DNA from: Candidatus Promineifilum breve
GTDB lineage: Bacteria > Chloroflexota > Anaerolineae > Promineifilales > Promineifilaceae
Assembly: GCF_900066015.1 (NCBI RefSeq)
Contig: NZ_LN890656.1
Span: 372,001-436,000 of the forward strand
Direction: 5' to 3'
Length of the DNA stretch: 64,000 nt
Position 1 is the stretch's first letter. Each line of letters opens with the position of its first letter. Under the pieces are notes generated by a model that saw only the letters and a list, made by a program, of their open reading frames with translations, had not been told where the DNA came from and did no database searches. Both the position numbers and the translations under genes were made by a program. Shown here piece after piece: positions 15,991-20,223 of this stretch.

Positions 15991-16019
15991 ATTGTGCCAC
16001 AAGCGGCGCCGGGCGTCTA
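15991..16019 (-). promoter_or_regulatory. Promoter with extended -10 (TGgCACAAT) 6 bases before DUF58 ATG
   Basis: The reverse strand shows TAGACG (4 of 6 to the -35 consensus), a 17-base spacer and CACAAT preceded by TGG. The -10 ends 6 bases before the ATG, which predicts a leaderless message. Confidence 0.42.
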
Positions 16020-16036
16020 CATTGGTGGAAAACGGG

Positions 16037-16215
16037 AGAATTAAACACGGATGGGACACGGATGCCACGGATTTTACGGATTGAACTCAATCCATTGGCT
16101 TCTACTTGGTGATAACAGGAAGAATTAAACACGGATGGGACACGGATGCCACGGATTTTACGGATTGAACTCAATCCGTTTGATCCGTTTAATCCGTGTC
16201 CCATCCGTGTTTAAT
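16037..16215. repeat. CACGGAT repeat with a 57-base direct duplication and an inverted arm
   Basis: The stretch 16037-16093 recurs nearly exactly at 16121-16177 (AGAATTAAACACGGATGGGA and onward). The right end, ATCCGTGTCCCATCCGTGTT, is the inverse of the repeat's left end, so the second copy closes into a hairpin. The family also occurs at 25601-25694 and 31629-31765. Confidence 0.85.
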
Positions 16216-16219
16216 TCTT

Positions 16220-16891
16220 CTACAACCCGGAAAACCAATCGCGCAAATCGCGCATCCCCTCGGCCGTCAGCTTGTGGCCGGTGGCGTATTCGCGGTAGGT
16301 CAGGTCGGCGCCGCTGTGACGCAGCAGGGCGGCGGCCCGTTGCGACTGCTCATAGGGCACGGTCTTGTCCTCCGTGCCGACGGCCCAGAAGGCGGGGCGG
16401 CCCGACAGGCGACCGGCGATCTCCTCTTCCGTCGCGGCGGGCGCGAAGCCGACCAGCCCGGCCACGCCCCGTGCCAATGCCGGCTCGCGCCAGGCGGCGG
16501 CCAGCGACACGGCCGCGCCCTGACTGAAGCCCAACAGGTAGAGCCGGTCGGGGTCGGCGTTATAGAGGCGGGGCAGGGCGTGGATGAAGCGGGCCAGCGC
16601 GGCCACGGCGGAGTCGAACCCGGCCAGGTCGGGCCAGCCGTCGTTGGGTTGGATCTGCCAGGAGAACAGATCGCCATCGGCCAGCGGCGCGCGCGGGGCG
16701 ACGACCAGCCACGGCCGGGGAATGGCCCGGCGAAAGACCCACATCACGTCCTCGTCGCCGCGACGGCCGTGGACCATCACCACCGTGGGATACGGCCCGG
16801 CCCCGTCCGGCGTTTGGACGCGATAGGCCAACCCGGCCTCGTAAAACTCAGGGCCATCCTGGACTAATTTGGGGGGATTTGACTCGACCAT
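16220..16891 (-). CDS. Phospholipase/carboxylesterase family alpha/beta hydrolase
   Basis: The 223-residue protein has an alpha/beta-hydrolase core: VMVHGRRGDE forms the oxyanion region, S123 in GFSQGA is the nucleophile, D175 in GTEDKTVP the acid and H206 in TGHKL the base. Size and motifs match the small carboxylesterase/lysophospholipase group (YpfH-like), cytosolic enzymes that cleave short acyl esters; the substrate is not predictable. The ATG at 16891 has no strong ribosome site. Upstream on the same strand are a TTGACA/TATACT promoter and a strong intrinsic terminator before the start codon, so expression is either attenuated or driven by read-through. Confidence 0.83.
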   Translation of the reverse strand: MVESNPPKLVQDGPEFYEAGLAYRVQTPDGAGPYPTVVMVHGRRGDEDVMWVFRRAIPRPWLVVAPRAPLADGDLFSWQIQPNDGWPDLAGFDSAVAALARFIHALPRLYNADPDRLYLLGFSQGAAVSLAAAWREPALARGVAGLVGFAPAATEEEIAGRLSGRPAFWAVGTEDKTVPYEQSQRAAALLRHSGADLTYREYATGHKLTAEGMRDLRDWFSGL

Positions 16892-16904
16892 ACGGTGTGT
16901 AGGT

Positions 16905-16964
16905 AAAAAAAATGAGGTGGCAGTAAGACGGGCGTCCTACTGCTCACCTCTGGGGGGGGAGCCA
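16905..16964 (-). ncRNA. Candidate ~60-nt small RNA or attenuator leader
   Basis: From a predicted start near 16964 the reverse strand runs through a C7 tract. It then forms a hairpin of about 16 base pairs (GAGGTG, bulged A, GCAGTA, GGAC / GTCT, TACTGC, CACCTC) with a GCCC loop, and ends in ATTTTTTTT. This is a textbook intrinsic terminator. The promoter-to-terminator distance of about 60 bases fits a small RNA whose UCCCCCCCA segment could pair with G-rich ribosome sites. Alternatively it is an attenuated leader of the esterase gene, which starts 14 bases after the T run. The two readings cannot be separated from sequence alone. Confidence 0.5.
16906..16950 (-). terminator. Intrinsic terminator (16-bp stem, T8)
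   Basis: The stem arms are 16950-16934 and 16929-16914 (reverse strand). They are followed immediately by A and eight T residues. On the forward strand the hairpin is followed by G-rich DNA, so termination is predicted in one direction only. Confidence 0.75.
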
Positions 16965-16970
16965 ATTACT

Positions 16971-16998
16971 AGTATACTCAGATCAATCCATTTGTCAA
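16971..16998 (-). promoter_or_regulatory. Sigma-70 promoter TTGACA-16-TATACT
   Basis: The reverse strand has TTGACA (16998-16993), a 16-base spacer and TATACT (16976-16971). It is one of the best consensus promoters in the window and reads toward the candidate small RNA and esterase. Confidence 0.65.
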
Positions 16999-17043: not shown

Positions 17044-17072
17044 TTGACCCGACAAAAGACCTATATTAGGAT
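17044..17072 (+). promoter_or_regulatory. Promoter TTGACC-17-TAGGAT ending 7 bases before the GlcD/F ATG
   Basis: TTGACC (17044-17049), 17 bases, TAGGAT (17067-17072), then 7 bases to the ATG at 17080. A leaderless transcript is predicted. The TTG at 17044 could be read as an in-frame start, but as part of the -35 it is a poor choice. Confidence 0.4.
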
Positions 17073-17079
17073 TCATTCC

Positions 17080-20000
17080 ATGCCGCCAGCGCGCCCAATG
17101 GTTGAAAGAATCGCCGATTTCAGCGCCGAATGCCGCCGCCACGTCGCCGGGGAATTGCGCGACGACCTGACCACGCGCGTATTGTATAGCAGCGACGCCA
17201 GCCTGTACCAGTTAATGCCGTTGGCGGTGCTCATCCCGCGCACGATTGAGGACGTCATCGCCGCCGTGGCCCTGGCCGCCGCCCATGGCCTGCCGGTGTT
17301 GCCGCGCGCCGCCGGCACCAGCCTGGCCGGGCAGGCGGTCAACGAGGCACTGGTCATTGACTTCAGCCGCCATCTGGATGCCATCCTCGCCATCGACCCC
17401 GCGGCGCGGACGGCGCGGGTGCAGCCGGGGGTGGTGCTCGACGACCTGGACGCGGCACTGCGGCCCTACGGCCTGCAATTCGGCCCCGACCCGGCCAGCA
17501 GCAACCGCTCGACCATCGGCGGCGCGGTCGCCAACAACGCCACCGGCAGCCATTCGCTGCTCTATGGCATGACCGCCGATCACGTGCGCGGGATGCGGGT
17601 CGTCCTGAGCGATGGGTCGCCGGCCGAGCTATCGGCCGCCACGCGACAGGGCAGGGGCAGCAGCGAATTTCGTATAGCAAATTGGGTTGACCGACTGCTG
17701 GCCGACCCGGCCCACCGGCAGATGATTCGCGACGGCACGCCGCGCTACTGGCGGCGCTGCGGCGGCTACAATCTCGACCGGCTGCTGGGGGATGGGTCGC
17801 CCGACCTGGCCCAACTGGTCTGCGGCTCGGAGGGCACGCTGGCGGTGATGACCGAGATCACCGTCGGTCTCGTGCCGCGCCCGGCGCATAGCGGGTTGGC
17901 GCTGGTGGAGTTCGACACGTTGGCTAGTGCGCTGGCCGCCGTGCCCGCCATCCTGGACACGGGGCCGTCGGCCGTCGAGTTGCTGGACAACCTTAGCCTG
18001 GCGCTATGCCGTGACGTGCCGGAATATGCCCGTTTGCTGGCCTCGGTCATCACCGGGCAGCCCCATTGCCTGCTGGTCGTCGAATACCAGGGGGAGAGTG
18101 CGGCGGCGGTGGGGGCGGGTGTGGAGCGGCTGGCGGCGCGGCTGGAACGGGACGCGCCGGGGGCTACCGGGCTGACGCGGGCGCTGACCCCGGCGGCGCA
18201 GGCGGCGGTGTGGCGGGTGCGCAAGGTGAGCCTGGGCCTGCTGATGTCGATGCGCGGCGACGTGAAGCCGGTGCCGTTCATCGAGGACGCGGCCGTGCCC
18301 GTGGAGCATCTGGGCGAGTATGTGCGCCAAATTGAGGAATACTGCGCCGGGCTGGGCACGCCCATCACCTATTACGCCCATGCCGGGGCGGGCTGCCTGC
18401 ACATCCGGCCGCTCATCAACCGGCGGCGGGCGGCCGAGATCGCCAAGATGCCCGACATCGCCCGCTTCGCCGCCGGGCTGGTGCAGGGCTACGGCGGGGC
18501 GCTGTCGAGCGAGCACGGCGACGGACGCACGCGCAGTTGGCTCAACGAGAGCTTCCACGGCCCGGCGCTCTACGACCTGTTCCGGAAGGTGAAGCGCGCC
18601 TTCGACCCGGACAACCGGCTCAATCCGGGGATTATCGTGGACGCCGGGCCGATGACGGTAGGGCTGCGGCCGGTGGCCCATGACGATTCTGTGCCCCATT
18701 TGTCATTCAGGGATTATGAAGGGAATGACGAAGAGAAATTTCGCATAGTGAAATTTTCACCCTCCGACACCCTGCCTACTAACCCGGTTCTCCCCCCAAC
18801 TTCCAACCCTTCCAACCAACCCCACGATTCCAATCGTTCCACCATTCCGATTGACCAACCGGCAACCACTGCCAACAAATCCTTTAACCTGTCGTCCCAA
18901 CCCCGGCCCGCTGCCGTTCCCCTTCCGCCACCTTCCGACCATATGGCGGACAACGACCCCATCACCCCCTCCGGCTTCGCCCGCGCCATCGAGATGTGCA
19001 ACGGCGCGGGCATCTGCCGCCAGCGCAGCAGCGGCACGATGTGCCCCAGCTTCATGGTGACGCGCGACGAGGAGCACAGCACCCGCGGCCGGGCCAATGC
19101 TTTGCGGGCGGCGCTGGCGGGGGTGTTGCCGGTCGCCGCGCTGACCAGCCCGCGGATGTACGCGGTCATGGATCTGTGCATCGGCTGCAAGGCGTGCAAG
19201 GCGGAGTGCCCCTCGGCCGTCGATATGGCCCGGCTCAAGATCGAATTCCTGGCCCGCTATCAGGCGGTGCATGGCGTTTCGCGGCGGGCGCGCTTCTTCG
19301 GCCATGCCGCAACGCTGAACCGGCTGGGCAGCGGGGCGGCGGCCCCCCTCGCCAACGCGGTATTGCAGTCGGCCGCCGGGCGGCGGGTGATGAACCAATT
19401 GTTCGGCCTGGCTCCCCAGCGGCCGTTGCCGTCGCTGGCCCGGCAGACGTTCGCGGCCTGGTGGCGGGCGCGCCGTCCGCCGGTCATCGCCGACGCCAAG
19501 GGCGAGATCGCGCTGCTGATCGACCCATTCACCAATTACAACGAGCCGCGGGTGGGGATGGCCGCGGTGGCGTTTTTCGAGGCGGTGGGGGTGCGGGTGG
19601 TCGTCGCCCCGGCTGTTGATGACGGGCGGCCGTTGCTATCGAAAGGGCTGGTCAGCGAGGCGCGGCGGGCGGCCGAGCGGGCGATGCGGGCGCTGTGGCC
19701 GCTGGTGGAGCGCGGGCTGCCCATCGTGGGGCTGGAGCCGAGCAGCCTGCTGACGTTGCGCGATGAGTATCTCTATCTGCTGCCCGATGACCCGCGCGTG
19801 GCCGCCGTGGCCGGGCGGGCGCTGACGTTTGAGGAGTACGTGGCCGACCTGGCCGAGCGCCACGACTTGCGGCCGTATTTCGCCCCGGCCGAGCGCCGGG
19901 TGCTGCTCCACGGCCATTGCCACCAGAAGGCGCTGGTCGGCAGCGGCCCGGCGCGGCGGGCGCTGGCCTTGCCGCCGGGCTATACGGTGGAGGAGGTCGA

Positions 20001-20223
20001 TTCGGGCTGTTGCGGCATGGCCGGATCGTTCGGCTATGAGGCTGAGCATTACGCCATCTCGCTGCAAATGGCCGAGCGGCGTCTGTTGCCGGCAGTGCGG
20101 GCGGCCGGCGAGGCGACGATTATCGCCGCCGCCGGGGTCAGTTGCCGGCAGCAGATCGCGCAGGGGAGCGGGCGGGTGGCGCTGCACCCGGCGGAGGTGT
20201 TGGCGAAGGCGTTGGTTGATTAA
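17080..20223 (+). CDS. FAD-linked oxidase fused to Fe-S/CCG domain (GlcD-GlcF type)
   Basis: The 1047-residue protein fuses two functions. Residues about 30-210 are the FAD-binding PCMH domain (PRAAGTSLAGQAVN; GPDPASSNRSTIGGAVANNA) and about 210-500 the FAD-oxidase C domain with THxRP-like HIRPLIN and SSEHGDGRTRSW. After a low-complexity linker (about 560-625) come a 4Fe-4S dicluster region (CNGAGICR, CIGCKACKAECP) and two cysteine-rich CCG repeats (HGHCHQKAL, DSGCCGMAGSFGYE). This is the architecture of D-2-hydroxyacid (glycolate, lactate or hydroxyglutarate) dehydrogenases that pass electrons to the chain. The ATG at 17080 was chosen over an upstream in-frame TTG. The linker looks like translated intergenic repeat (NPSNQPHDSNRST). 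Confidence 0.9.
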   Translation: MPPARPMVERIADFSAECRRHVAGELRDDLTTRVLYSSDASLYQLMPLAVLIPRTIEDVIAAVALAAAHGLPVLPRAAGTSLAGQAVNEALVIDFSRHLDAILAIDPAARTARVQPGVVLDDLDAALRPYGLQFGPDPASSNRSTIGGAVANNATGSHSLLYGMTADHVRGMRVVLSDGSPAELSAATRQGRGSSEFRIANWVDRLLADPAHRQMIRDGTPRYWRRCGGYNLDRLLGDGSPDLAQLVCGSEGTLAVMTEITVGLVPRPAHSGLALVEFDTLASALAAVPAILDTGPSAVELLDNLSLALCRDVPEYARLLASVITGQPHCLLVVEYQGESAAAVGAGVERLAARLERDAPGATGLTRALTPAAQAAVWRVRKVSLGLLMSMRGDVKPVPFIEDAAVPVEHLGEYVRQIEEYCAGLGTPITYYAHAGAGCLHIRPLINRRRAAEIAKMPDIARFAAGLVQGYGGALSSEHGDGRTRSWLNESFHGPALYDLFRKVKRAFDPDNRLNPGIIVDAGPMTVGLRPVAHDDSVPHLSFRDYEGNDEEKFRIVKFSPSDTLPTNPVLPPTSNPSNQPHDSNRSTIPIDQPATTANKSFNLSSQPRPAAVPLPPPSDHMADNDPITPSGFARAIEMCNGAGICRQRSSGTMCPSFMVTRDEEHSTRGRANALRAALAGVLPVAALTSPRMYAVMDLCIGCKACKAECPSAVDMARLKIEFLARYQAVHGVSRRARFFGHAATLNRLGSGAAAPLANAVLQSAAGRRVMNQLFGLAPQRPLPSLARQTFAAWWRARRPPVIADAKGEIALLIDPFTNYNEPRVGMAAVAFFEAVGVRVVVAPAVDDGRPLLSKGLVSEARRAAERAMRALWPLVERGLPIVGLEPSSLLTLRDEYLYLLPDDPRVAAVAGRALTFEEYVADLAERHDLRPYFAPAERRVLLHGHCHQKALVGSGPARRALALPPGYTVEEVDSGCCGMAGSFGYEAEHYAISLQMAERRLLPAVRAAGEATIIAAAGVSCRQQIAQGSGRVALHPAEVLAKALVD

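Follow-up and report, generated by a model that had tools for sequence, protein, structure and literature searches.

A candidate C-rich small RNA from a lineage-specific, multi-copy family in the Chloroflexota

A promoter, a hairpin, and a T-run follow each other on the minus strand directly upstream of an esterase gene in the window (the whole stretch of 64,000 nucleotides analyzed here, from Candidatus Promineifilum breve), which raises the question of whether they encode a small RNA in its own right or serve as a conditional leader of the esterase mRNA. The arrangement, pointed out by the first-pass annotation, is confirmed by the sequence and by its fold, the 74-nt stretch having an MFE of -28.5 kcal/mol (z = -6.4) that none of 200 shuffled sequences equaled. 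The -35 and -10 boxes, separated by a 16-nt spacer, match the consensus at 11 of 12 positions (0.6 promoter-like pairs with at least 9/12 matches are expected by chance per 6 kb). TATACT is directly followed by AGTAATT and then by GGCTCCCCCCCCA, and the order after the promoter is GGCUCCCCCCCCA, the 16-bp hairpin with the loop GCCC, and eight T (table 1). The predicted start is the GG at 16963/16962, and CUCCCCCCCCA carries eight C (16959-16952), so that the C-rich start described earlier is present, with a run longer by one C than had been written. Likewise, the distance of 14 nt reported for the stem holds only when counted from a start at 16964, the stem beginning 20 nt downstream of the -10 box. 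A single A at 16913 separates the hairpin from the T-run, 13 nt downstream of which lies the esterase ATG (16891). A simple terminator scan made no call at the hairpin, presumably because of its bulge. Just past the 3' end of the esterase gene, an 84-bp unit is tandemly duplicated (16012-16177); some short pieces of it recur elsewhere in the contig, which also holds two 409-aa ORFs whose starts and upstream regions are identical (G000:C2:290320-291546 and 525934-527160), possibly a duplicated mobile gene.

Table 1. Features of the small RNA locus and its neighbors (window positions)
Feature	Positions	Strand	Basis or remark
-35 box TTGACA	16993..16998	-	Sequence; TTGAC(A/T/G/C) at the equivalent place in type A copies
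-10 box TATACT	16971..16976	-	Sequence; in most of 74 copies, the box ends 6-7 nt upstream of GGCUCCC
Small RNA gene, predicted transcript ~58-59 nt	16905..16963	-	Ends inferred from promoter and T-run
5' unpaired head GGCUCCCCCCCC	16952..16963	-	Core GCUCCC kept in nearly all copies
Hairpin of 16 pairs with a single bulged A; a C-G pair closes the GCCC loop	16914..16950	-	Fold and covariation; CGCCCG conserved
Run of 8 T, completes intrinsic terminator	16905..16912	-	T-run in almost all copies
Esterase/hydrolase gene, Pfam Abhydrolase_2 (PF02230)	16220..16891	-	Follows type A copies
Divergent neighbor ORF, FAD-linked oxidase and Fe-S domains	17044..20223	+	Separate from the RNA; start codon as listed

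When 52 genomes from the family of the window's organism were searched at the DNA level, matches appeared upstream of the esterase gene and also elsewhere, and in distant genera the aligned region begins near the -10 box and ends with the T-run. In an alignment of 42 copies, CUCCC..., GAG..CUC, and CGCCCG are near-invariant, the conservation of the head being somewhat favored by the search because the copies were chosen by their C-rich head. A covariance-model search that did not require a perfect head also recovered the variants CUCCCCGCCC in genus g7 and CUCCCUCU in genus g22. The stem is variable in this alignment, yet two-sided changes occur in 12 of its 16 pairs and 96.5% of the cells are paired, a proportion that drops to 37-47% in a slid control that preserves relatedness. 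The covariation score is 0.656, against 0.19 for shuffled and at most 0.16 for slid alignments; all five covariation measures are higher than in any of the 500 shuffles or the slid controls, although, the aligned sequences being related, the shuffle counts are not to be read as probabilities. RNAalifold, unaided, predicted the identical hairpin. As read from these sequences, compensatory changes maintain the stem, and the unpaired CUCCC tract and the loop sequence CGCCCG are kept, i.e., a conserved unpaired CU-rich seed stands beside a stem whose sequence is free to change. Conservation of hairpin and C tract in relatives, proposed at the outset as a check, is thus borne out with strong covariation, and the promoter is found in most copies.

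The covariance model identified the RNA in 46 of the 52 family genomes, in all 22 genera and in 17 of 17 good-quality genomes; the window copy (16906-16963) scores 75.6 bits (E-value 5.1e-12), being itself part of the training set. The RNA was not found in four sister-family genomes of the same order nor in six genomes of the family, also under laxer filters. In class-wide (396) and phylum-wide (400) genome samples, every match fell within this same family, probably the Promineifilaceae, and among named genomes all model-confirmed copies belong to assemblies titled Chloroflexota or subgroups. In unrelated phyla, six sequences that matched the pattern (L116, L118, L119, L147, L155, and L157) were discarded as they had no model score, about six such matches being expected by chance on a rough estimate. 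The window's own genome contains a single copy, no second one rising above noise (E-values 0.4 and 0.7); some genomes carry 5-8 copies, with up to 7-8 in g7 and g22. Rfam 15 gave no match at the gathering score and, at a permissive threshold, only chance matches (E-values about 5-10). That these sequences constitute a conserved RNA gene family is, in our view, close to certain.

The predicted transcription unit is conserved together with the hairpin, its elements keeping a fixed order. Among 74 unique copies, 80% have a sigma-70-like promoter matching at 9/12 positions or more, versus 10% of shuffled upstream sequences, and because the -10 box mostly ends 6-7 nt upstream of the GG, conservation restarts at the expected transcription start; in g22, the head begins about 12 nt downstream of the -10 box. 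By its sequence, the locus thus has what is expected of an independent small RNA gene: a promoter and a terminator of its own, enclosing a conserved predicted transcript. G048, a genome of g22, has nearly identical RNAs preceded by dissimilar upstream sequences (L186-L188); selection therefore acts on the transcript. A single metagenome assembly (G021:C168) contains two RNA units arranged head to tail with no gap (L167, 2371-2479), the first of which lacks a T-run, indicating that the hairpin is kept there without termination; a transcript of this arrangement would be a dimer and bear two C-rich heads.

The copies differ in their surroundings, which bears directly on the leader question. Those termed type A lie upstream of the esterase gene in 28 of the 29 family orthologue loci inspected (L003-L031, the window's own excluded; the exception is L027), with gaps between T-run and ATG of 6-101 nt (median 32). 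Such a position is what would be expected of a cis-acting attenuator, whose hairpin would keep the polymerase from reaching the esterase unless a signal intervened, the short RNA being a mere by-product. The narrowest gaps (6-13 nt in the window, G033, G016, G017, and G011) also point this way, because they leave little room for another promoter, so that read-through is the simplest route to esterase expression there, as does the observation that in genus g1 the RNA is missing wherever a strong esterase match is missing. A -10-like element is, on the other hand, found 4-8 nt before the esterase ATG in 7/28 type A loci (8% of genes genome-wide), suggesting that the gene has its own leaderless promoter in these cases; a Shine-Dalgarno-like site precedes it in 7/28, and half of the loci have neither element. 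In the 42-copy alignment, which ends at the T-run, RNAalifold returned the terminator hairpin as the sole consensus structure, with no competing anti-terminator nor any conserved alternative pairing, and no leader peptide was seen by eye in the predicted 59-nt transcript. The RNA moreover persists without any esterase match in G018, G021, G022, G041, and G048 and in G044, where the only match is weak and non-orthologous, and in G008 (L197) it lies about 1.5 kb from the esterase gene with an opposing ORF between them; several of these assemblies are incomplete.

Type B copies also speak against attenuation as a general explanation. They mostly have GAGAUG/CAUCUC as stem base and a differing -35 box (TTTGCA or TTGCC), and they have no same-strand gene directly behind them. 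Instead, they point at the 3' end of a convergent gene (often DinB_2-like or Clp-like, or other) in several genera and cannot, therefore, be the leader of that gene; the RNA is thus conserved at loci that exclude a leader role. At five type B loci from several genera (L055, L064, L069, L071, and L203), the 3' end of the DinB_2-like gene lies a few bases past the copy, a Clp-type ATPase gene is often near type B copies, and GCC is conserved directly after the T-run in most of them. Three of the copies in a g7 genome (G015; L169, L172, and L173) lie upstream of genes with response-regulator-like starts, which may be a chance association. The type A hairpin base, GAGGUG/CACCUC followed by the U tail (window 16905-16950), resembles a Shine-Dalgarno/16S 3'-end pair, with CACCUCCUUU in several copies; most type B copies lack it, and as type B has GAGAUG/CAUCUC this likeness was set aside.

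Constant linkage to the esterase, which the first-pass annotation had taken to support an attenuator, is thus nearly complete for type A and absent from type B and the extra copies; conservation away from the esterase, given as support for a small RNA, was observed in many copies without a same-strand gene directly downstream, at esterase-free loci, and in genomes without an esterase match. Attenuation is conceivable for type A but cannot explain the whole RNA family, and as an account of the latter we consider it unlikely. Conversely, a pure trans role does not explain the near-constant association of type A with the esterase. Judging from the layout of their loci, type A copies may act additionally as esterase leaders, read-through of the terminator possibly supplying the leader of the esterase mRNA where another promoter has no room. 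Of the two possibilities originally proposed, the small RNA is thus the better supported, and an extra leader role is possible for type A.

Because type B copies cannot be leaders and some genomes contain 5-8 copies, an independent family of C-rich small RNAs is the most likely explanation. We therefore favor, with some reserve and from sequence comparisons, an independently transcribed small noncoding RNA of ~58 nt that belongs to a lineage-specific, multi-copy family and would act in trans through its C-rich head. Transcription would start at the GG and stop in the T-run, the unpaired CUCCC(CCCC) head would serve as a pairing seed on G-rich stretches of target mRNAs, the CGCCCG loop might be a second seed, and the hairpin would both end and protect the transcript. 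The parts of this scenario do not carry equal weight: that the RNA acts mainly as a free molecule and not as a leader appears quite probable, whereas for its acting by base pairing with mRNAs the arguments seem to us evenly balanced. A composite scenario, in which the regulatory RNA originated in the ancestor of a single Chloroflexota family and is a conditional esterase leader at one locus and trans-acting or protein-binding elsewhere, is possible but doubtful.

We searched for pairing partners at translation starts in 800 kb of the window's genome, where a simple purpose-written caller gave 572 genes, 570 of whose starts were scored. The first-pass annotation had described many ribosome sites as G-rich; across these 800 kb they are ordinary AGGAG/GGAG Shine-Dalgarno sites, GGGGAG preceding only 3/570 starts and GGGG being barely more frequent before starts than in the control (30 vs 20 of 570). 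Duplex energies of the head at the 570 starts were no better than in shuffled or control windows and weaker than inside genes. Genome-wide, GGGGGGAGCC occurs four times, once as the complement of the RNA gene itself, and the reversed pattern seven times. Across the family, GGGGGAGC located 0-10 nt before an ATG outnumbers its reversed control by a factor of 1.67 where the genome has the RNA and of 1.59 where it does not; given this similarity, the excess of GGGGGAGC probably reflects ordinary ribosome sites. Neither the single-genome energies nor the family-wide counts thus revealed complementary targets at translation starts beyond chance, in tests that are coarse and that a handful of specific targets would escape. 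That the C-rich head pairs with G-rich ribosome sites, as first suggested, is thus not supported: gene starts show no excess complementarity, and the sites are equally frequent in genomes without the RNA. One individual candidate was a DUF2726 gene (L217, 14100-14787; G000:C2:274100-274787) with GGAGGGGGGGAGC directly before its ATG, which places its start among the strongest predicted complements of the head in the 800 kb examined; we rejected it because it has matches in only 9/52 genomes and because two same-genus relatives have no GGAGGGGGGGAGC-type site in the stretch examined.

The lack of detectable pairing targets in the 800-kb energies and in the genome and family-wide counts would also be compatible with a decoy or scaffold RNA, whose C-rich single strand and CGCCCG loop would titrate an RNA-binding protein, by analogy with the CsrB/RsmX-type RNAs that titrate CsrA. 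An invariant unpaired sequence on a stem of free sequence, the high copy numbers of g7 and g22, and the tandem dimer would suit such a role. Each RNA, however, bears only one short motif set, and the window's genome has a single copy, so that we regard a decoy as improbable, slightly more so than the attenuator. Far less credible is an element that has no function as RNA, whether a mobile palindrome, a DNA-binding site, or just a terminator: several scattered copies do occur in some genomes, but the synteny of types A and B is stable across genera, promoter placement is conserved, the stem changes in sequence with its pairing kept, and no pattern match was found in the viral contigs of IMG/VR. 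The least plausible alternative is a nucleotide-sensing start site like that of the Bacillus pyrG leader, which begins with GGC and a C-rich stretch and in which G-run slippage under pyrimidine starvation prevents attenuation: the conserved GGC start, C run, and terminator recall it, but the geometry is unsuited, as the C run is not part of the terminator stem and extra G would therefore leave the stem intact. The long C run is, moreover, broken in g22 and g7 copies, which keep CUCCC, and type B has no gene to control.

If the composite scenario is correct, the RNA, a leader at one locus and free elsewhere, would be a core regulator in a group with no experimentally described small RNA in the literature searched, in which we found no experimental small-RNA work on these Chloroflexota. 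With a calibrated covariance model at hand, existing wastewater metatranscriptomes can be checked at once, and the separate A and B loci, which have like products, allow gene-linked and gene-free RNAs to be compared.

Among known systems, a pyrG-type leader is similar to type A in its GGC start, C-rich stretch, and intrinsic terminator before a gene; here, the C run is outside the stem, many copies are not followed by a gene, and the gene is an esterase and not CTP synthase. The control of pyrG by reiterative transcription is described in PMC4448216. The Chloroflexi-1 motif (RF01698), a structured RNA candidate from Chloroflexota (PMC2864571), shares the phylum, but the Rfam 15 scan showed no match between it and the window RNA. 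The closest parallels are in design. The alpha-r14/cuckoo RNAs (NfeR1) of alpha-proteobacteria are trans RNAs that combine an ultraconserved unpaired CU-rich anti-Shine-Dalgarno motif with freely varying stems (PMC10746234), a combination of conserved unpaired CU-rich motif and variable stem also seen here; they have three hairpins, CCUCCUCCC motifs, and tested targets, whereas the window RNA, from Chloroflexota, has one hairpin, the GGCUCCCCCC head, and the CGCCCG loop. LhrC1-5 of Listeria, which like other UCCC-motif small RNAs (RsaE, FsrA) exposes CU-rich single-stranded UCCC seeds (PMC4132741), is similarly multi-copy; it differs in being 111-114 nt long, in folding into two stem-loops with three seeds, and in having a target that is proven, and no sequence relation to the window RNA was found. 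The architecture described here and the negative outcome of the target tests set the RNA apart from alpha-r14/cuckoo and LhrC, and no family in Rfam 15 matched it; it is thus a new RNA family of known design.
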